34,134 nt of DNA from Bryobacteraceae bacterium (GTDB lineage Bacteria; Acidobacteriota; Terriglobia; Bryobacterales; Bryobacteraceae). A program made the translations under genes and the position numbers. Of this stretch, positions 2,918-29,250 are shown piece after piece (within the stretch, counting starts at the first letter, position 1; each line of letters starts with the position of its first letter). The notes under the pieces are model-generated. The model saw only the letters and a program-made list of their open reading frames with translations, was not told the origin of the DNA and ran no database searches. Where the stretch lies: NCBI GenBank assembly GCA_030041985.1, contig JASIAM010000176.1, positions 1-34,134 on the forward strand, written 5' to 3'.

Positions 2918-5056
2918 ATGCGTGTTGAACCAACTATTCGGCCTTGCCCCCGCAAATTGCAGACACTTGGTCTGATTCTTTGGGCGTCCGGGCTTCTGAT
3001 TCACACGATCCATCACGGCGGCCTCGCCACCAACCTCGCATATATCGGGCCGGGCGCCGGTTTCGCGTTTATCGGTTCGTTTCTGGCGGTAATCGGCGGC
3101 GTACTGTTGGGCCTGATCTCTCTTTTGACATGGCCCTTCCGCATGGTTTGGCGGGCGCTTACCGGCAGCCAAGGTTACAAAAAGGCGAAAATCCGGAAAT
3201 TGATTTTCCTGGGTTTGGATGGACTCGATCCGGGACTAGTCGAAAGATATATTTCTAATGGAAAGCTGCCGAATTTTCGCAAACTGCGCGAGAGCGGTGA
3301 TTTTCGCCGGCTGCGCACCACCTTTCCCGCGCTCTCGCCGGTTGCCTGGTCCACCTTCGCCACCGGCGTCAATCCGGCGCGGCACAATATGTTCGATTTT
3401 CTCAACCGCAGCCTGCGAACGTATCTGCCCGAGCTTTCGTCGGCGCGCGTGCGCGAGCCGAAGCGCATTTTAAAGCTGGGAAAATACCGCATTCCCTTGA
3501 GCCGGCCGATCGTAGAGATGCGGCGCAAGAGCCGCACCTTCTGGCAAATTCTGGGGGAGCACCAGATCGGATCGACCATTCTGCGGGTGCCCATCACCTT
3601 CCCGCCGGAGAAGTTTAATGGCCGCATGCTCTCGGCCATGTGCACGCCGGATTTGCTCGGCACGCAAGGCACGTTCGCGTTCTTCACTACTACCGCGGGC
3701 GCCAGCGCCATGGAAAGCGGTAATCAATTCCCGCTTACCAAGTGCGACGGTGGTTACTCGGGTAAAATCCAGGGGCCGCAAAACGGCATGGTCGAAGGCG
3801 GCGGCGATCTCGAAATCCCCTTTCGTCTGAAAATCAATGGCTCCGCAGCCACTCTGGAAATTGAGGGCGAGAAACACCCGCTCAACGAAGGGGAATACTC
3901 ATCTTGGATTGCGTTGAATTTTCAAGCGCCGCTGGGCATCAAAGTGCGCGGCATTGCGCGTTTCCTCTTTAACCAAACCCCTTCCGGCCCCACTCTCTAT
4001 GTGACTCCCATCAATATCGACCCCGAGCACCCAGCGTTGCCCATCTCGCATCCCTCCTTCTATGCGACCTATCTCGCCAAACTGCTGGGCGAATACGCAA
4101 CCCTCGGAATGGCCGAAGATACCTGGGCACTCAATGAAGGCGCTATCGATGAAAAAGCCTTCCTCGATCAGGCCTACCTAACGTACGAAGAGCGGCGCGC
4201 CATGTTTCAAAGCGCTCTCGAGCGGACGCGGCGCGGCGTGGTGGCCTGCGTGTTCGATACCACCGATCGCGTCCAGCACATGTTCTTCCGCCACCTGGAT
4301 CGTGGCGGAAAATATGCAGGAACTATTGAAGACCTGTACCGCCGCGCGGACGAACTGGTGGGCGAAACGCTGCGGCACGTGGATGACGACACGGTTTTAT
4401 TCGTGCTTTCCGATCATGGATTCGCGTCCTTCGAGCGCGGCGTCAACCTCAACACCTGGCTGCGCGAAAACGGCTACCTCTTTCTGAAACCCGGAGCCAC
4501 CGGCGACGGCCAATATCTGAAAGAGATCGACTGGAGCCGCACCAAGGCCTACACCTTCGGGCTGGCGGGAGTCTACATCAATCAGAAGGGCCGCGAAGCG
4601 GAGGGTATCGTGGATCGCAAAGAAGCCGCGGCACTGAAACGCGAACTGGCCGCGCGGTTGAGCGGCCTCGAGGACACCGTGCGCGTGCGCACCGGCATTC
4701 GCAAAGCATGGCCTTCCGACGCTCTCTACACGGGACCGTACCTGGATGCGGCCCCGGATGTCGTGATCGGTTACGAAAACGGCTACCGCGCTTCGTGGGA
4801 TGCCGCAGTGGGTAAAGTATCGGCCGAAGTGTTCGACGACAATCGCAAGGCCTGGAGCGGCGATCACTGCATCGACCCCCACCTGGTGCCGGGCATTCTC
4901 TTTTCGAACCGTAAAATCGGCGCGGACAACCCCGGCATCGAAGACATGGCCCCTACCGCGCTCGATTTGTTCGGCATTCCCATTCCGGCATATATGGAAG
5001 GCAAGCCGGTGCTGACCACGCAGCCCGTGGCGGCGCCCGCTGAGGTGACCGCATGA
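2918..5056 (+). CDS. Membrane-anchored alkaline-phosphatase-superfamily hydrolase (type I phosphodiesterase/nucleotide pyrophosphatase type)
   Basis: A 712-residue protein from the ATG at 2918. The N-terminus has two hydrophobic segments (about 14-30 and 44-75, with IGPGAGFAFIGSF between), placing the catalytic domain outside the cytoplasmic membrane. The catalytic domain begins at LGLDGLDP (99-106, first metal-binding Asp) and continues with the nucleophile region SPVAWSTFATG (140-150; Thr/Ser at 145-146), FDTTDRVQHMFF (about 446-457, metal-binding Asp and His), LSDHGF (497-502) and SGDHC near the C-terminus. This full set of two-zinc ligands suggests an active phospho- or phosphodiester hydrolase or transferase. 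The substrate cannot be read from the sequence. The gene overlaps the next one by ATGA (5053-5056) and is its paralogue. Confidence 0.92.
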   Translation: MRVEPTIRPCPRKLQTLGLILWASGLLIHTIHHGGLATNLAYIGPGAGFAFIGSFLAVIGGVLLGLISLLTWPFRMVWRALTGSQGYKKAKIRKLIFLGLDGLDPGLVERYISNGKLPNFRKLRESGDFRRLRTTFPALSPVAWSTFATGVNPARHNMFDFLNRSLRTYLPELSSARVREPKRILKLGKYRIPLSRPIVEMRRKSRTFWQILGEHQIGSTILRVPITFPPEKFNGRMLSAMCTPDLLGTQGTFAFFTTTAGASAMESGNQFPLTKCDGGYSGKIQGPQNGMVEGGGDLEIPFRLKINGSAATLEIEGEKHPLNEGEYSSWIALNFQAPLGIKVRGIARFLFNQTPSGPTLYVTPINIDPEHPALPISHPSFYATYLAKLLGEYATLGMAEDTWALNEGAIDEKAFLDQAYLTYEERRAMFQSALERTRRGVVACVFDTTDRVQHMFFRHLDRGGKYAGTIEDLYRRADELVGETLRHVDDDTVLFVLSDHGFASFERGVNLNTWLRENGYLFLKPGATGDGQYLKEIDWSRTKAYTFGLAGVYINQKGREAEGIVDRKEAAALKRELAARLSGLEDTVRVRTGIRKAWPSDALYTGPYLDAAPDVVIGYENGYRASWDAAVGKVSAEVFDDNRKAWSGDHCIDPHLVPGILFSNRKIGADNPGIEDMAPTALDLFGIPIPAYMEGKPVLTTQPVAAPAEVTA

Positions 5057-6954
5057 AGGCTCTTGTCTTCCCTGCCCTCACACTCACCGCATTCCTTCTC
5101 TCCAGTTGCTCCCACCAGGCCATCCGTGCCAGCGCGGCCGGCCGCCGCATGATCGCCCTGGGTATTGATGGAATGGATCCCGCTTTCCTCGAGCGACATT
5201 GGGACTCGTTGCCCAATCTCCGGCGGCTTCACATGCAAGGCGATTTCGAGCGCCTGGGAACCACCATACCGCCCCAAAGCCCGGTCGCATGGTCCACGGT
5301 TGCCACCGGCCTCGATCCGGGCGGCCATGGCCTTTTCGATTTCGTCCATCGCGACCCGGCCACGCGCGAGCCGATCACCTCCATGGCCGAGGTCACCGAT
5401 CCCAAAACCACGCTGCACATCGGGCCTTATGTGATTCCTCTCAGCTCGGGTACGGTAGAAAATATGCGTGCCGGCCGGACTTTCTGGCAGGTGCTCCAGG
5501 ACCACGGCATTCCCGCCACCGTGATCCGCATTCCCGCCAATTTTCCGCCCGCCGAATGCGAGCAGGAATCGCTTGCGGGCATGGGCACGCCGGATTTGAA
5601 CGGCTCCTTCGGAACCTTCAGCTTCTTCACAGACGATCCCGCCGAGACGCGCAACCAGGTTTCCGGCGGCCTGATTATGCATCTCCATGGACAAAATGGC
5701 CGCTATACCTTGCGTATTCCGGGGCCGCCCAACACGCTGCGTAAAGACCGCGCCGTCTCTGTGATCGACCTCCCTGTCCATGCCGATCCGACGGCGGACG
5801 TCGCGCGGTTCGATGCGCCGGAAGAGCAGTTCGTCCTGCGCCAGGGCGAGTGGTCCGATTGGCAGCGCGCCGATTTCACTCTTATTCCGGGTTTGAAAAG
5901 TGTCTCCGGAATTTTTCGCATTTATCTGCAGCAGGTCCATCCCCATCTGCGCGTTTATGTGAGCCCGGTGAATATCGATCCCGGCGAACCGGCGCTGCCC
6001 ATTTCCACTCCCGACAAATACAGCGCGATTCTGGCCGGCAAGCTCGGCCCTTTCTACACGCAGGGCATCGCCGAAGAGACCTCGGCATTTCGCGCCGGCA
6101 TTCTTTCCAAAGACGAGTTTCTAGTGCAGAGCAACAAAGTACTCGATGATAGCCTGCGCATGTTCCATTACACTCTCAGCCAGTTCTCGAACGGACTACT
6201 CTTTTACTATTTCTCGAGCGTCGATCAGAACTCGCACATGCTGTGGGGTAAATACGAAGACGACCTGCTCAAAATCTACGAAAAAGTGGATGGCGCAGTG
6301 GGAGACGCCATGGCGCAACCCAACACCGACCTGCTGATCCTCTCCGATCACGGCTTCGCGCGCTTTGATCGCGCTGTCCATCTGAACACCTGGCTGATGC
6401 AGCAAGGCTTTATGACCCTTGACGACCCCACCAAAACGGGCGATGACACCGGATTCGTTCACGTAGATTGGTCCCGGACCCAAGCCTACGCGCTGGGCTT
6501 GAACGGCATCTATCTGAATCTCTTCGGCCGCGAGAATGGCGGCATCGTGGAACAGGCCGATAAACAGGAAGTGCTGGATGATATCGCGAAAAAGCTGCTG
6601 GAATTCCGCGATCCTGTGACCGGCGATCACGTCGTCGATAAGGTCTACTTCTCCTCAACCGCTTACCGCGGGCACAATTTGAGGCTCGCGCCGGACATCA
6701 TCGTCGGCTTCCGCCGCGGGTACCGCGCTTCGTGGCAGACCGCCCTGGGCGCGGTTCCGCCGGTTGCCATCGAAGACAATGACCAGGCTTGGATCGGCGA
6801 TCACTGCATGGCCGCCGACGAAGTGCCCGGGGTGCTTCTCAGCAACCGCAAATTCCGCTCTATGCACCCGCAAATGTACGATGTCCCGGTGACCATCCTG
6901 AACGAGTTCGGGGTGTCCGCCATTAGTGGCATGCTGGGGCAATCTGTTTTCTGA
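5053..6954 (+). CDS. Lipoprotein alkaline-phosphatase-superfamily hydrolase, paralogue of the preceding gene
   Basis: A 633-residue protein whose ATG overlaps the previous stop by 4 nt. It starts with a lipoprotein signal peptide ending in LLSSC (Cys19), so the mature protein should be lipid-anchored outside the cytoplasmic membrane, unlike the multi-span anchor of its neighbour. The catalytic landmarks repeat those of the neighbour: GIDGMDP (37-43), SPVAWSTVATG (about 76-86), SSVDQNSHMLW, ILSDHGFARF and IGDHCM, all metal ligands kept. The two genes also share colinear stretches such as TPDLxG, YVSPVNIDPxxPALPIS and YRASW, indicating an old tandem duplication. Retaining two differently anchored copies suggests two substrates or two steps of one pathway. 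Confidence 0.92.
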   Translation: MKALVFPALTLTAFLLSSCSHQAIRASAAGRRMIALGIDGMDPAFLERHWDSLPNLRRLHMQGDFERLGTTIPPQSPVAWSTVATGLDPGGHGLFDFVHRDPATREPITSMAEVTDPKTTLHIGPYVIPLSSGTVENMRAGRTFWQVLQDHGIPATVIRIPANFPPAECEQESLAGMGTPDLNGSFGTFSFFTDDPAETRNQVSGGLIMHLHGQNGRYTLRIPGPPNTLRKDRAVSVIDLPVHADPTADVARFDAPEEQFVLRQGEWSDWQRADFTLIPGLKSVSGIFRIYLQQVHPHLRVYVSPVNIDPGEPALPISTPDKYSAILAGKLGPFYTQGIAEETSAFRAGILSKDEFLVQSNKVLDDSLRMFHYTLSQFSNGLLFYYFSSVDQNSHMLWGKYEDDLLKIYEKVDGAVGDAMAQPNTDLLILSDHGFARFDRAVHLNTWLMQQGFMTLDDPTKTGDDTGFVHVDWSRTQAYALGLNGIYLNLFGRENGGIVEQADKQEVLDDIAKKLLEFRDPVTGDHVVDKVYFSSTAYRGHNLRLAPDIIVGFRRGYRASWQTALGAVPPVAIEDNDQAWIGDHCMAADEVPGVLLSNRKFRSMHPQMYDVPVTILNEFGVSAISGMLGQSVF

Positions 6955-6955
6955 T

Positions 6956-7777
6956 ATGGACCTGTTGAACGGCATCATCAACGCGCTGTTGCGCTGGTTT
7001 TACGCGGCTTTTTCGTGGACCGGCCCCAGTGCTCCAGCAGTCAGCCTCACGGTGCTATCCGTGCTGGTGGGCCTCGGCATGTTATGGGTATTCCGCAAGA
7101 CCTCCAACCAGACGCGCATTCGCGCGGTGAAGAAAAAAGTCTACGCCTACCTGCTCGAAATGCGCGTGTATGGCGACGATCCCGCCGCTACCTGGCGAGC
7201 CCAAAAATCCTTGATGAGCGCCAACCTGCGCTATATGGGGCTGGCGCTGAGGCCGGCGCTGTGGATGGTCGTGCCGGTGGGCATTCTGCTGATTCACATG
7301 GAGGCATTCTATGGGCGGGCGCCTCTCGAACCGGGCCACCCGGTGGTGGTTACGGCAGCGCTCCGCAATGGCGCGAGTGGCCCCGCGCCTGAACTACAGG
7401 CGCCGCGCGGTGTCATTATCTCGGCCCCTCCGGTGCGTGTTTTGGATGAAAACCAGGTGAGCTGGCGCATCGTCCCACAAACCGCCGCTTCCGGCGAATT
7501 GCGTTTCGAAATCAACGGCCATAGCATCGCCAAGGAAATCGTCGCTGGAGGCGGGCAGCGCTTCATTCCCGGACGGCGCGTGCAATCGGCTTGGGAGGCT
7601 CTGTGGCATCCCGATGAACCGCGCATCCCCACAGCCGATCTCGAATGGGTGGATATCGCCTACCCCGAAGCCTCCATTCCGCTGTTCGGTTTCCACATCA
7701 ACTGGCTGGTGTGGTTCCTGGTGGTTTCCATGCTGGCGGCCCTCCTACTCAAAAAACGCTTCGGCGTAACGCTGTAG
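6956..7777 (+). CDS. Three-helix membrane protein, Oxa1/EMC3 (DUF106)-like in its N-terminal half
   Basis: A 273-residue protein; the ATG at 6956 follows the previous stop by 1 nt (a longer frame from 6926 would only overlap the hydrolase). Predicted layout: membrane helix about 28-46, a charged helical stretch (about 50-98, SNQTRIRAVKKKVYAYLLEM onward), a second membrane helix (about 100-117) introduced by LRPALWMVVPVGILL, an extracytoplasmic beta-rich region (about 120-240), and a final helix (about 248-266). The order helix, basic coiled helix, then a Leu-Arg-Pro helix resembles the Oxa1-superfamily proteins EMC3/TMCO1/DUF106; that link is a pattern match by eye, not a domain hit. Position and spacing place it in the hydrolase operon, possibly as membrane partner or insertase. 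Confidence 0.8.
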   Translation: MDLLNGIINALLRWFYAAFSWTGPSAPAVSLTVLSVLVGLGMLWVFRKTSNQTRIRAVKKKVYAYLLEMRVYGDDPAATWRAQKSLMSANLRYMGLALRPALWMVVPVGILLIHMEAFYGRAPLEPGHPVVVTAALRNGASGPAPELQAPRGVIISAPPVRVLDENQVSWRIVPQTAASGELRFEINGHSIAKEIVAGGGQRFIPGRRVQSAWEALWHPDEPRIPTADLEWVDIAYPEASIPLFGFHINWLVWFLVVSMLAALLLKKRFGVTL

Positions 7778-7788
7778 AATGGATTGAA

Positions 7789-7980
7789 ATGTTCGGACCG
7801 ACTATTCGATTAAACAAAGACCTGTGGGACCGCATCAAGAAGTGCGCCGGCGCCGCGGGATACAGCTCTCCAGAAGAGTTCGTGGAACACATACTGGAGC
7901 GCGAGCTGGCCAAGCTCGAAGACGCTGTGACCGACGAAGAAATCGTCAAAAAGCTCCAAGGCCTCGGCTATATCGACTAG
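7789..7980 (+). CDS. Small ribbon-helix-helix (CopG-like) protein
   Basis: A 63-residue protein starting 11 nt after the previous stop. A longer frame to 7645 overlaps the membrane-protein gene and is not used. The sequence opens with a short beta strand (TIRLNKDLWDRIKK) followed by GYSSPEEFVEHILERELAKL, the strand-helix-helix spacing of the MetJ/Arc/CopG DNA-binding fold, and ends with a short acidic tail. It may regulate the operon in which it is the last gene; alternatively it may be a protein-binding RHH module. Its stop overlaps the convergent gene in the palindrome CTAG (7977-7980). Confidence 0.75.
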   Translation: MFGPTIRLNKDLWDRIKKCAGAAGYSSPEEFVEHILERELAKLEDAVTDEEIVKKLQGLGYID

Positions 7981-20926: not shown

Positions 20927-23296
20927 ATGACGACACCGCGGAGAGTGCTGTTGGCTATCGCAGCGGTGTTTCTGATCGCATCGGTTGGCTGGTCGCAGGC
21001 GAATCCCGCCGCTTCCGTACTGACTCAGTACTGCACCACTTGTCACAATTCCCGGCTCAAAACTGCCGGCCTGGTATTGGACCCCGGCGCCTCCGCGAGC
21101 CCCGCGGCGAACGCCGAGACCTGGGAGAAGGTAATCCAGAAGCTGCGTTCGCGTGACATGCCTCCCGCTGGAATGCCGCGGCCTGACTCCGCTACCTACG
21201 ATGCGGCCGCTTCCTGGTTGGAAACGGAACTCGACCGCTCGGCGGCGGCTCATCCGCAGCCCGGCAGATTACCTTTGCTGCATCGATTGAGCAGGACGGA
21301 ATATCAAAACGCCATTCGCGATCTGCTGGCGCTCGATGCGCTTCCCAAAGAAATGGATTTCAGCCTTCTGCTTCCCTCCGATAACGCGAGCAGCGGCTTC
21401 GATAACCTTGCCGATCTGCTCTTCGTCTCCCCGTCGGACATGGAGAGCTATCTGAATGCGGCGCAGAAGATCAGCCGCCTGGCAGTGGGCGATCCGGCGA
21501 TGCCCGTGATGGTCAATCGTTATCTGCTGCCGGACGAACAGCCGCAGGACTCGCAATTGGACGGGTTGCCATTCGGCACGCGTGGCGGATTGGCCGTGCG
21601 CAGCGATTTTCCGTTGGATGGAGAGTATCTCATCAAGGCGGAACTCGCGGGAACCCCGCGCGAGGCGCAACAGCTCGAAATCCTTGTCGATGGCGCACGA
21701 GTGAACCATGTCACTGTAGGCGGCGCCGAAACTGGCCGTGGCGGATCGTCCAAGTCTGCGCGCCCGGTGGCTGCGCCTCTGGAGTTCCGCATTCCTCTCC
21801 AGGCAGGGCCGCATCTCGTCGCTGTTACCTTTGTGGAACAGAATACGGTGCGAGACGAACAGACTCTGCGCCCCCGCATGCGTAGCAGGGGTACCGAGCC
21901 GGCGCTTGCTAATCTCGCGATCAGCGGCCCCTACAACGGCAAACGGCCCACAGACACGCCCAGCCGGCGGCGGATTTTTGTCTGCTACCCGGACGCCGCT
22001 GCAGACCAATTGCCCTGTGCCAAGCGAATTTTATCCACTCTCGCGAGGCGTGCCTGGCGGCGCCCCGTGACCGATGCCGACGCTGATATCGGGCGCCTTC
22101 TGCCTTTCTACAACGCGGGCCTCAAAGAAGGCGGATTTGACCAAGGCATTGAGCGCGCACTGGAACGCCTCTTGGTGAGCCCGCAGTTTCTCTTTCGCAT
22201 CGAGCGGGACCCGCCGGATGCCGCCGCCGGAACGCCTCATTTCGTCAGCAATCTGGAATTGGCCTCGCGCCTTTCGTTCTTCCTATGGAGCAGCATTCCG
22301 GATGACGAACTGCTGCAGCTCGCGGCCGCGGGGAAACTCAGAGACCCGGCTGTTTTGGAACAACAGGTGCACCGCATGCTGGCCGACCCGCGTTCGGAAT
22401 CGCTGGTCACCAACTTCGCCGAACAGTGGCTTTTCTTGCGCGACATCGAAGCCAAACGGCCGGACGAGTTGTTATTCCCCGATTTTGACGAGACACTCCG
22501 TGCTGCGTTCCGCCGGGAGACGGATCTTTTCTTGGACAGCGTCCTGCGGGAAAATCGCAACGTGCTCGATCTGCTCACCGCCAACTACACCTTTCTGAAC
22601 GACCGCCTGGCGCGGCATTATGGCATCCCCAACGTGGAAGGCAGCTATTTTCGCCGCGTGCAACTTCCGGCGGATAGTCCCCGCGGCGGCCTGCTGGGTC
22701 AGGGGAGTATTTTGACAATCACTTCTTATGCCACGCGCACGTCTCCGGTCGTGCGCGGCAAGTGGGTCCTGGAAAATCTGCTTTCTGCGCCGCCTCCTCC
22801 TCCACCGCCCAACGTGCCCGCCCTCAAAACTGAGGGCAATGAACCCGGAAAAGTGCTGTCGATGAGGGAGGCCATGATTGCGCACCGGGCCAATCCGGCG
22901 TGTGCGGGGTGCCATGCCCGCATGGACCCGATTGGCTTTGCCATGGAAAATTTCGACGCGGTGGGCCGATGGCGCGACCGGGATAACGATAATCCTATCG
23001 ACACTTCCGGCGTTTTCCCGGGCGGCATTCGTTTCGAAGGTGTGGCCGGTTTGAAGAAAGCTTTGCTCGCACACCCCGAGCAATTCGTCCAGACGGTGGC
23101 CAGTAAATTGATGATGTATGCGATCGGGCGTAATGTCCAATACTTCGATCAGCCTGCCATTCGGGCCATTGTGCGCGATGCGGCGGCAAACAACTACACC
23201 TTTGCTTCGCTGGTATCGGGGGTGGTGAAGAGTCCACAGTTTCAGATGCGAGAGGCGGCGGCGCGCGCCGAAAACGCGCATGCCGCGCAGCAGTGA
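20927..23296 (+). CDS. Exported DUF1587/1595/1592/1588/1585 protein with two haem-binding motifs
   Basis: A 789-residue protein. A signal peptide (about 1-24) leads to a cytochrome-like N-terminus with CTTCH (Cys36, Cys39, His40), typical of the planctomycete/acidobacterial proteins of this class. The following sequence matches the order I know for these multidomain proteins: RLLHRLSRTEYQNAIRDLLA-type (DUF1587), a beta-rich middle with DGARVNHV, FAxRAWRRPV-type (DUF1595), FLFRIERDPPD and LASRLSFFLWSSIPDDELL (DUF1592), HPACxGCHARMDPIGFAMEN-type (DUF1588) with a second haem motif CAGCH (659-663), and a C-terminal LMMYAIGRNVQYFDQPAIRA (DUF1585). The biochemical role is not established. It is paired with the DUF1552 gene directly downstream. 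Confidence 0.93.
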   Translation: MTTPRRVLLAIAAVFLIASVGWSQANPAASVLTQYCTTCHNSRLKTAGLVLDPGASASPAANAETWEKVIQKLRSRDMPPAGMPRPDSATYDAAASWLETELDRSAAAHPQPGRLPLLHRLSRTEYQNAIRDLLALDALPKEMDFSLLLPSDNASSGFDNLADLLFVSPSDMESYLNAAQKISRLAVGDPAMPVMVNRYLLPDEQPQDSQLDGLPFGTRGGLAVRSDFPLDGEYLIKAELAGTPREAQQLEILVDGARVNHVTVGGAETGRGGSSKSARPVAAPLEFRIPLQAGPHLVAVTFVEQNTVRDEQTLRPRMRSRGTEPALANLAISGPYNGKRPTDTPSRRRIFVCYPDAAADQLPCAKRILSTLARRAWRRPVTDADADIGRLLPFYNAGLKEGGFDQGIERALERLLVSPQFLFRIERDPPDAAAGTPHFVSNLELASRLSFFLWSSIPDDELLQLAAAGKLRDPAVLEQQVHRMLADPRSESLVTNFAEQWLFLRDIEAKRPDELLFPDFDETLRAAFRRETDLFLDSVLRENRNVLDLLTANYTFLNDRLARHYGIPNVEGSYFRRVQLPADSPRGGLLGQGSILTITSYATRTSPVVRGKWVLENLLSAPPPPPPPNVPALKTEGNEPGKVLSMREAMIAHRANPACAGCHARMDPIGFAMENFDAVGRWRDRDNDNPIDTSGVFPGGIRFEGVAGLKKALLAHPEQFVQTVASKLMMYAIGRNVQYFDQPAIRAIVRDAAANNYTFASLVSGVVKSPQFQMREAAARAENAHAAQQ

Positions 23297-23306
23297 GGAT
23301 AACCAG

Positions 23307-24641
23307 ATGATATTCGTTACGAAAAAAGCGCTGCCACGGCGCACGTTTCTGCGGGGCATCGGCGTTACCGTCGCCCTGCCGCTGATGGACGCCATGGTTC
23401 CGGCACTCTCGGCGAAATCGCTCAAACCCACACCCCGGCTGGGTTTCGTCTACGTTTCGAACGGCGTGATCCAAAACCAGTGGAAACCGGCCACAGCGGG
23501 AACCGCGTTCGAGTTGCCTCCCATTCTGAAGCCGCTCGAACCGGTACGCAGCCAGATCAACATCTTGAGTGGGCTGGCGCATCTGCAGGCCGATACATTC
23601 GGCGATGGCACCGGCGATCATCCGCGGGCTTCGGCCGTGTGGCTCACGGGAGTTCACGCCTATGACCGCACCCGCCCCGGTGTGGAAGTACACCTCGCAA
23701 CCTCCGCGGATCAACTGGCCGCCGCCGAAATCGGCGTGACCACACAAGTGCCTTCGCTCGAATTGAACTTGGACCCTCCTACGCAGGGTGCCTGCGATTC
23801 CGGCGATTGCTTTTACGTAAACACGATTTCCTGGCGGAATCCGACCACGCCCAACCCCGCTGAATCCCACCCCCGCGTGGTTTTCGAGCGGCTCTTCGGC
23901 GATGGTGGCACGGCGGCGCAGAGGTTGGCGCGGGCGCGCGATGAGGGGAGCATTCTCGACTCCGTGCTCGAAGAGGTCAACGATCTGAACAAAACTCTAG
24001 GACCGGGGGACCGCACCAAGCTCACCGATTATCTAGATTCGGCGCGCGAAATCGAGCGGCGCATTCAGAATATCGAAGCGCGCGGAGCGCAATCCATCGA
24101 CTTGCCCGACCGGCCCACCGATATCCCGCCTTCCTTTGCCGAACATACCAAGCTGATGTTTGATCTCCAGTTGCTCGCGTACCGCGCCGATGTCACGCGC
24201 GTGTTCACCATGATCCTGGCGCGCGAACTCAGTCCGCGGACTTACCCGGAAATCGGTGTTCCCGAGCAGCACCATCCCACGTCCCATCACCGCAACGACC
24301 CCGAATTGATCGCCAAGAAGGCGAAGATCGATAACTACCACGTCCAATTGCTCACGTATTTTCTGGAAAAATTGCAGGCCACGCCGGACGGCGAAAGTTC
24401 TCTCCTGGACCAGAGCCTGATTCTATATGGCGGCGGCATGGGCGATGGCAATCTGCACCGCCACTTCGATCTCCCATGCCTGCTGGCCGGAAAACTGGGA
24501 GGCCAGTTCCAAACGGGCCGTCATTTGGTGTATCCGGATCGCACGCCCATGGCGAATCTGCTGGTAACGATTCTGAACAAGGTAGGCGTACATACGGGCA
24601 AACTAGGCGACAGCACAGGCCCCTTGCCGCTCGAAGTTTGA
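23307..24641 (+). CDS. Exported DUF1552 protein
   Basis: A 444-residue protein. The ATG at 23307 is preceded by GAGG and leaves a twin-arginine-type signal near the N-terminus (PRRTFLRGIGVTVALPLMDA); an in-frame ATG at 23280 overlaps the preceding gene and adds nothing. The mature sequence has the DUF1552 hallmarks FVYVSNGVIQNQWKPA, NILSGLAHLQ, DHPRASAVWLTGVH, SLELNLD and QSLILYGGGMGDGNLHRHFD near the C-terminus. The gene almost always follows a DUF1592-type gene in the lineages I know, and the spacing here (11 nt) fits an operon. The Tat-like signal suggests export of a folded, possibly metal-containing protein. Confidence 0.93.
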   Translation: MIFVTKKALPRRTFLRGIGVTVALPLMDAMVPALSAKSLKPTPRLGFVYVSNGVIQNQWKPATAGTAFELPPILKPLEPVRSQINILSGLAHLQADTFGDGTGDHPRASAVWLTGVHAYDRTRPGVEVHLATSADQLAAAEIGVTTQVPSLELNLDPPTQGACDSGDCFYVNTISWRNPTTPNPAESHPRVVFERLFGDGGTAAQRLARARDEGSILDSVLEEVNDLNKTLGPGDRTKLTDYLDSAREIERRIQNIEARGAQSIDLPDRPTDIPPSFAEHTKLMFDLQLLAYRADVTRVFTMILARELSPRTYPEIGVPEQHHPTSHHRNDPELIAKKAKIDNYHVQLLTYFLEKLQATPDGESSLLDQSLILYGGGMGDGNLHRHFDLPCLLAGKLGGQFQTGRHLVYPDRTPMANLLVTILNKVGVHTGKLGDSTGPLPLEV

Positions 24642-27240: not shown

Positions 27241-27330
27241 GATTATTTCTTTTTCGATAATTTAAATAAATCTTTTTATTAAAACAGCAGATTTTATTTG
27301 ACTTCATTGAAAATACCGAATAATATCGCA
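27241..27330. promoter_or_regulatory. AT-rich leader upstream of the large collagen-like gene
   Basis: Positions 27241-27300 contain only 10 G or C in 60 nt (17%), in a window that is otherwise GC-rich. The stretch has runs such as TTTAAATAAA and TTTTTATTAAAA. It directly precedes the start at 27340 and probably holds the promoter and UP-type elements. No individual -35/-10 pair is convincing. Confidence 0.45.
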
Positions 27331-27339
27331 TTTACGTCG

Positions 27340-29250
<1,911 letters not shown>

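Follow-up and report, generated by a model that had tools for sequence, protein, structure and literature searches.

A stretch of 34,134 nucleotides (nt) from a Bryobacteraceae bacterium (contig JASIAM010000176.1 of assembly GCA_030041985.1, hereafter the window) carries a four-gene module that is inherited as one unit. Its genes code for two paralogous enzymes of the alkaline phosphatase (AP) superfamily (H1 and H2), a membrane protein of the Oxa1 superfamily (M), and a small protein (R) (Table 1). Genetic linkage of the module to genes that make or use 3'-phosphoadenosine 5'-phosphosulfate (PAPS) is supported by its neighborhoods, and the module likely takes part in sulfate-dependent chemistry of the envelope and has enzymes on both membrane faces. 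More specifically, we tentatively favor a reading in which the module is the membrane part of a PAPS-dependent pathway that makes or matures a sulfated envelope compound, with M as its hub. That compound would most likely be a glycan or a glycolipid.

Co-inheritance and distribution of the module

The four genes are tightly packed, with H1 and H2 overlapping (−4 nt) and gaps of +1 nt between H2 and M and +11 nt between M and R. These values agree with the spacing reported in a first-pass annotation of the window, which had proposed a single dedicated unit. The start of M is taken as the ATG at 6956, from which the +1 gap is counted (the listed open reading frame [ORF] opens at a GTG at 6926), and R starts at an ATG at 7789, 11 nt past the M stop at 7777. 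Comparative data strongly support the single unit. In a set of 61 genomes, made up of 60 relatives plus the one that the window comes from, 34 encode M, and strong matches to the H family occur in the same 34, at least two per genome. Among the 27 genomes without M, H-family matches were found only in G026, where they are weak and partial. In sister-family genomes such as G040, G044, and G047, H1, H2, and the R-M pair are far apart yet all present. A phylum-wide set of 199 genomes includes 52 with M, every one of which also has an R match and an H match of at least 370 bits; H matches of that strength occur in eight further genomes that lack M (G216, G129, G247, G086, G084, G164, G110, and G224).

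Gene order is also preserved. The usual arrangement is H1-H2-R-M (40 fetched loci), and M precedes R in the window and its close kin L066, L067, and L068, the last with CysC in between. Loci were picked by M (20), H2 (20), or H1 (80), and near-duplicates (L069, L106, L109, L114, L115, L126, L136, L141, and L153) were removed before counting. This left 88 loci containing R and M, in 85 of which the two genes lie within 400 nt of each other on the same strand. Random association of the four genes in relatives is excluded by the all-or-none pattern and the kept order. The presence of three or four fold classes within one operon might suggest that unrelated genes came together by chance. We give this explanation almost no probability and consider it ruled out by all-or-none inheritance and by an order that is conserved across several phylum labels; the genes are also retained when unlinked.

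The module extends beyond the phylum. The best 80 named loci in a scan with H1 alone include 58 that also have R and M. Nine of the remaining 22 continue for at least 5 kb past H1, so that a contig end does not account for them. R and M are present in loci labeled Dadabacteria (4/5), Aminicenantes (4/5), and Omnitrophota (2/2), as well as in loci labeled Gemmatimonadetes, Thermodesulfobacteriota, Bacteroidota, Deltaproteobacteria, Poribacteria, and Spirochaetes; contigs from Planctomycetota and Chromatiales stop soon after H1. The phylum labels are those of the metagenome-assembled genome records; under the taxonomy used with the tree described below, Dadabacteria belong to Thermodesulfobacteriota, and Aminicenantes are placed in Acidobacteriota by some taxonomies.

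In a single midpoint-rooted tree of 66 rows (59 of them different), all 22 H1 rows group in a single clade (support, 98/94). Because the sister group of this clade contains H2, the H1/H2 duplication seems to predate the spread of the module. Pairwise distances at the 71 loci with all four genes are correlated between H1 and H2 (r = 0.86), H1 and M (0.78), H2 and M (0.78), M and R (0.67), and H1 and R (0.50).

Linkage to sulfate activation and sulfotransferase genes

Profiles for CysC, Sat, CysD, CysN, a CysQ-like family of the inositol-monophosphatase type, and one sulfotransferase family were run on all loci, with at least one seed of each checked against Pfam. No locus had been selected by sulfate genes, and loci collected for a paralogue of R (R2) stand outside the set of 88. 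At least one sulfate-activation, 3'-phosphoadenosine 5'-phosphate (PAP)-removal-type, or sulfotransferase gene is present at 27 of the 88 loci versus 0 of 40 control stretches (20 kb each, from 20 genomes, of which G216 lacks M). The Fisher value of 9e-6 for this comparison overstates its certainty, because the loci are not phylogenetically independent and the controls were not matched one to one. Thresholds were fixed after the scores had been seen, and the near-misses in the controls are a CysN-like match of 144 bits (cut-off 600) and a CysQ-like match of 45 bits (cut-off 300).

At 13 loci, a sulfation gene lies within 100 nt of a core gene or overlaps it on the same strand, some of the overlaps reflecting uncertain ORF starts. 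The arrangement CysQ-CysC-CysD-CysN-H1-H2-R-M was identified at L104 and L157, with a sulfotransferase on the opposite strand. Sat follows M at L121, CysC sits between M and R at L068, and L190, a locus collected for R2, reads CysQ-R2-Sat-CysC-H0-H1-H2-R-M. Genome content shows a similar tendency. APS (adenosine 5'-phosphosulfate) kinase (CysC) is found in 33 of 34 carriers of M compared to 13 of 27 non-carriers, and within the window's family in 14/14 compared to 12/23. Of the 34 carriers, 20 have the sulfotransferase family PF13469, compared with 6 of the 27 other genomes (21/34 and 8/27 when PF00685 is added); sulfotransferases are thus enriched in carriers and not universal. The window's own genome has three APS kinase matches (C30, C304, and C333), and the module-linked sulfotransferase family is represented in it by a single gene (C335).

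R2 lies near an APS kinase at L164, L186, L187, L189, L190, and L191, with a 460-amino-acid-type PF01663 enzyme adjoining at all but L190. On the same strand, L186 also has Pfam matches for a PHP-domain protein, a sulfatase-like enzyme, a polysaccharide flippase, and, weakly, a radical SAM protein; this gene content suggests an operon for a sulfated glycan.

Paired enzymes with predicted active sites on opposite faces

Both enzymes match PF01663 well above the curated cut-off of 23 bits (H1, E = 1.2e-33, 117.6 bits; H2, E = 3.3e-32, 112.9 bits), and an identity of 39% over 613 columns marks them as paralogues. Positions D101, S140, D450, H454, D499, H500, and H650 are invariant in an alignment of 32 H1 rows. 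The corresponding alignment of 33 H2 rows has invariant D39, S76, D391, D432, H433, and H584, with H395 conserved in at least 90%. We take these positions to be the nucleophile and two-metal ligands of the AP superfamily, and the proposal that both hydrolases keep all metal ligands is borne out by their conservation. The nucleophile is likely a serine, S140 in H1 and S76 in H2. In nucleotide pyrophosphatases/phosphodiesterases (NPPs), it is usually a threonine.

The two enzymes had been described as differing in their anchors, which holds for the H1 membrane segments and the H2 lipobox (LLSSC); homologues suggest that they differ in side as well. H1 starts with a hydrophobic segment near its N-terminus; the protein also has a YIGPGAG motif and a further transmembrane (TM) segment. 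The GPGAG motif precedes a TM segment in 102 of 105 H1 sequences, with a hydrophobic segment ahead of it in 87. Net charge over the 30 residues past the TM segment is positive in all 102 scorable sequences (mean, +7.4), and the catalytic domain is predicted to be cytosolic because of this charge (the positive-inside rule). For H2, simple motif rules, with which some miscalls are expected, identified an export feature in 78 of 83 sequences: a twin-arginine translocation (Tat)-like motif in 20, a lipobox with a hydrophobic segment in 43 others, and a hydrophobic segment only in 15; five have none. The catalytic domain of H1 thus seems to be cytosolic and H2 exported, placing the paralogues on opposite membrane faces.

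A structure model of H2 has a predicted local distance difference test (pLDDT) score of 93.6. Its best matches in the PDB are NPPs (the Xac NPP at E = 2.6e-12, ENPP1, ENPP3, and ENPP5), along with phosphonoacetate hydrolase and PafA, although identity to the 50 best solved structures is only 9%–14%. The model points to an NPP fold, with a predicted activity of the phosphodiesterase type. H1 and H2 resemble the NPP family in PF01663 matches over the cut-off, with the H2 fold and the catalytic residue set as further likenesses. They differ from it in the serine at the nucleophile position, in a strand-rich stretch at about residues 189–303 of H2, and in occurring as two paralogues on predicted opposite faces.

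Other enzymes of the superfamily occur nearby. A sulfatase-type AP gene of about 287 amino acids (S287) lies upstream of H1 in many relatives from the order, overlapping the H1 start by 4 nt at L072 (6190–7050, + strand), and is absent beside H1 in the window. In close relatives, a polytopic sulfatase-family enzyme of about 710 amino acids with an LGYVQ tail is divergent from H1 (L066, 7244–9376, − strand); its nucleophile is likely a threonine and not a formylglycine cysteine. Two haloarchaeal plasmids (L226 and L227) carry distant AP-family relatives amid glycosyltransferase and glycan genes, with sulfatases and, at L226, a PAPS-reductase-family gene. These matches extend over less than two thirds of H2, and none of our conclusions draws on them.

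M is an additional member of the Oxa1 superfamily

The Oxa1-like identity first suggested for M was confirmed by profile searches. A profile of 39 M sequences identified one PDB sequence, the archaeal protein MJ0480 (5c8j), at E = 3.7e-12 over residues 10–120, which span TM1, the cytosolic helices, and TM2. The Pfam family EMC3_TMCO1 was matched at E ≤ 0.1 by 16 of the 39 homologues (best, 3.1e-6); M of the window scores 16.4 bits, under the cut-off of 27.1. The AlphaFold model of M has a pLDDT of 95.2. By fold comparison, residues 121–202 form an immunoglobulin (Ig)-like domain, with Z scores up to 6.4, a middling grade for the tool. Nearly all rows of a fold search of the PDB (Foldseek, VIA) are matches to this domain, and the search barely probed the TM part. 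Two of the four invariant residues in M, W170 and R171, fall within the Ig-like domain.

YidC (PF02096) is present in 53 of the 61 genomes. M is counted as an additional superfamily member because YidC is present in 32 of the 34 M carriers, and M as a substitute for the cellular YidC was rejected for the same reason. The lack of a PF02096 match in the assembly that includes the window (G000, 98% complete) is probably an assembly gap; YidC is present in the M carriers G002 and G004 of the same genus. According to PMC8675477, the Oxa1 superfamily comprises the families YidC, TMCO1, EMC3, and GET1, and YidC has, between its helices 4 and 5, a TM hairpin that is specific to bacteria. By our own mapping onto that description, the Ig-like domain of M falls at the position of the hairpin. 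M resembles the archaeal type in its three-TM layout and in its match to MJ0480, and differs from bacterial YidC, as described there, in having an Ig-like domain where YidC has a TM hairpin. It differs further in having fixed partners (H1, H2, and R) in bacteria that carry YidC.

M could be a dedicated insertase or chaperone for H1 and for polytopic AP enzymes of the S711 type, with R regulating the operon. The Oxa1-superfamily core fits such a role, S711-type or S287-type AP genes often adjoin the module, and M is additional to YidC in nearly all carriers. Most H1 proteins, however, have an ordinary signal-like segment and a TM segment, for which a dedicated insertase is normally not needed, and the invariant W170 and R171 lie in a domain that is superfluous for an insertase core. 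We regard this role as quite unlikely.

R and a shared C-terminal tail

R was annotated initially as a ribbon-helix-helix (RHH) protein. For R itself this assignment is weak: no RHH profile exceeded its cut-off, and the matches obtained were RelB-like (E = 0.11) and NikR and Arc (both at E of about 0.3). The assignment fares better for R2, which matches RHH_1 at E = 0.0032 and 17.8 bits, still below the cut-off of 20.5. In its length and its strand-helix-helix-like sequence pattern, R resembles RHH/CopG proteins. It differs from them in its slightly acidic character (mean net charge, −1.8 in 91 sequences), which counts mildly against DNA binding, and in an invariant GLGY at its C-terminus (38 rows). 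At L103 (7184–7534, − strand), a tandem pair of R-like ORFs was observed, the second of 49 amino acids.

The tail is not restricted to R. L..LGY or a close variant ends 89 of 91 R, 10 of 11 R2, 21 of 46 S711-type AP enzymes, and 6 of 11 CysC sequences. It was found in 0 of 110 H1, 0 of 86 H2, 0 of 87 M, and 0 of 22 sulfotransferases, and in 0 of 3,822 other ORFs of at least 150 amino acids, many of which are not genes. On the six tailed CysC (L164, L186, L187, L189, L190, and L191), it sits on an extra C-terminal extension. All six of these loci also hold R2; five were collected because of R2, and L164 was not. Among the five loci with untailed CysC, R2 occurs within the stretch only at L100. 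From its distribution, the motif looks like a shared docking tail. The endings of fused Sat-CysC proteins were dropped as R-type tails and look like the C-terminus of APS kinase itself. Those of CysD, presumably its own C-terminus, are no longer claimed either.

R could also belong, with an unseen partner, to a toxin-antitoxin unit hitchhiking on the operon. The weak RelB-like match and a ParE-type pair upstream on the other strand (Table 1) would be in line with this. R, however, adjoins M on the same strand with the regularity described above, no other gene was seen to accompany it so regularly, and the ParE-type pair is a separate unit. This reading is very improbable and was rejected. An anti-phage defense system was likewise rejected, since matches to PADLOC defense models were limited to PglZ for H2 (E = 0.053) and DpdC for R (E = 0.044), with nothing for H1 or M.

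Proposed role in the cell envelope

In the pathway that we favor, the module would work with the PAPS supply of the cell on a sulfated cell-envelope compound. The Ser-type NPP domain of H1 is predicted to lie on the cytosolic face of the inner membrane and H2 on the other face. Acting on a shared membrane-bound intermediate from opposite sides of the membrane, they would transfer or hydrolyze phosphoryl, or possibly sulfuryl, groups and so either modify the intermediate by group transfer or trim it. M is predicted from its sequence to be membrane-spanning, its helical part lying in the cytosol and its Ig-like domain in the periplasm, and may serve as an Oxa1-fold hub that holds the enzymes and the intermediate together. 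R would be a small cytosolic RHH-fold adaptor or autoregulator working with M. The first-pass annotation had proposed envelope modification or nucleotide/phosphodiester processing; the NPP fold of H2 is consistent with this, and the sulfate-activation neighborhood narrows it down.

Several observations weigh against a sulfation pathway. APS kinase also serves cysteine synthesis, making its presence unspecific. No sulfation gene adjoins the module in the window, and none is present within the stretch at 61 of the 88 loci. In searches for PF13469 and PF00685 only (E = 1e-5), 13 of the 34 carriers have neither; these searches are incompletely sensitive, as they found just one (in G034, with PF00685 added) of four module-linked sulfotransferase genes. 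The module-linked sulfotransferase family itself is present in 4 of 61 genomes, all of them carriers, which rules it out as an obligatory fifth partner. Recurrent neighbors were listed as 40 families, of which 20 were annotated from one representative each, counted without controls; no glycosyltransferase is among the 20. Other families do recur, including an outer-membrane beta-barrel (14 loci), a class III aminotransferase (11), a nitroreductase (10), a thioredoxin (10), an HD domain (10), and a response regulator (9). Several of these are mostly from Aminicenantes-type loci, the barrel and the response regulator span more lineages, and we read them as large or clade-bound families. Finally, an NPP fold alone fits many substrates, and the sides and chemistry of H1 and H2 are predictions.

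Some of these points would be expected if the module served phosphorus or phosphodiester turnover, with H1 and H2 recycling nucleotides, phospholipid head groups, or glycerophosphodiesters; the sulfate genes would then be incidental neighbors. The top structural matches of H2 (NPPs, phosphonoacetate hydrolase, and PafA), the 13 carriers without either sulfotransferase family, and the 61 loci without sulfation genes all fit. Several sulfate gene families nevertheless recur in separate lineages, adjacent and on the same strand at 13 loci and in none of the controls. Two paralogues on predicted opposite sides and an Oxa1-type protein would also not obviously be required for scavenging. We rate phosphodiester turnover as rather unlikely, and continue to prefer, tentatively, the sulfated envelope compound.

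A bolder version of the sulfated-envelope pathway would dispense with a classical sulfotransferase. The NPP-fold paralogues on both faces would then form a trans-membrane group-transfer system, moving a group that bears sulfate or phosphate on and off a membrane carrier via the Oxa1 hub, with PAPS provided by the neighboring genes. We give this version a low probability. If true, it would account for carriers like G031, where an APS kinase lies inside the operon and neither PF13469 nor PF00685 is matched, and would give the Oxa1 fold a second role among bacteria. A comparable case is Acidobacteriaceae bacterium KBS 96 (L115), which seems to be an isolate and carries H1-H2-R-M; G012, a genome nearly identical to it, has APS kinase and matches neither PF13469 nor PF00685.

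The sulfated capsule of Vibrio sp. KMM 8419 (PMC11641403) is an example of PAPS-dependent envelope and capsule sulfation in bacteria. The module resembles such systems in the sulfate activation and sulfotransferase genes at some of its loci and differs in the lack of a glycosyltransferase among its 20 annotated recurrent neighbor families. To our knowledge, no envelope or capsule sulfation cluster has the core set H1-H2-R-M, and no description of this set, its spread, or its sulfate link was found in searches of open-licence PMC papers. The protein families were already known, that of R by weak matches; what seems new is the combination of genes, together with its distribution and its link to sulfate. 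If the favored pathway is correct, the module represents an unrecognized sulfate-linked envelope pathway shared by Acidobacteriota, most of them uncultured, and by several further phylum labels. M would add a bacterial member besides YidC to the Oxa1 superfamily, tied to enzymes and apparently not to general insertion. The novelty would be stronger if its role proves to be other than insertion, and its ties to enzymes make other jobs of the Oxa1 fold directly testable.

Features of the window

TABLE 1 Positions of the module genes and of other features in the window
Feature	Position	Strand	Description
H1	2918–5056	+	712 amino acids; membrane-anchored AP-superfamily enzyme, PF01663, NPP type
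H2	5053–6954	+	633 amino acids; lipoprotein-type AP-superfamily paralogue, PF01663, predicted exported
M	6956–7777	+	273 amino acids; three-TM Oxa1-superfamily protein (EMC3/TMCO1/MJ0480-like), Ig-like domain between TM2 and TM3
R	7789–7980	+	63 amino acids; RHH-like by weak matches, C-terminal GLGY tail
ParE-type pair	2167–2696	−	ParE-type toxin gene (PF05016, E = 1.8e-7) with a small upstream ORF (2436–2696)
DUF1592 region	20927–24638	+	DUF1592/DUF1588/DUF1585 protein with cytochrome-type domains, then a DUF1552 protein
Collagen-repeat protein	27298–29247	+	weak carbohydrate-binding module match (CBM_5_12)

The ParE-type gene and its small companion, directly upstream of H1 and on the other strand from it, are likely a toxin-antitoxin pair. 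Farther downstream, the window holds the DUF1592 region and the gene for the collagen-repeat protein.

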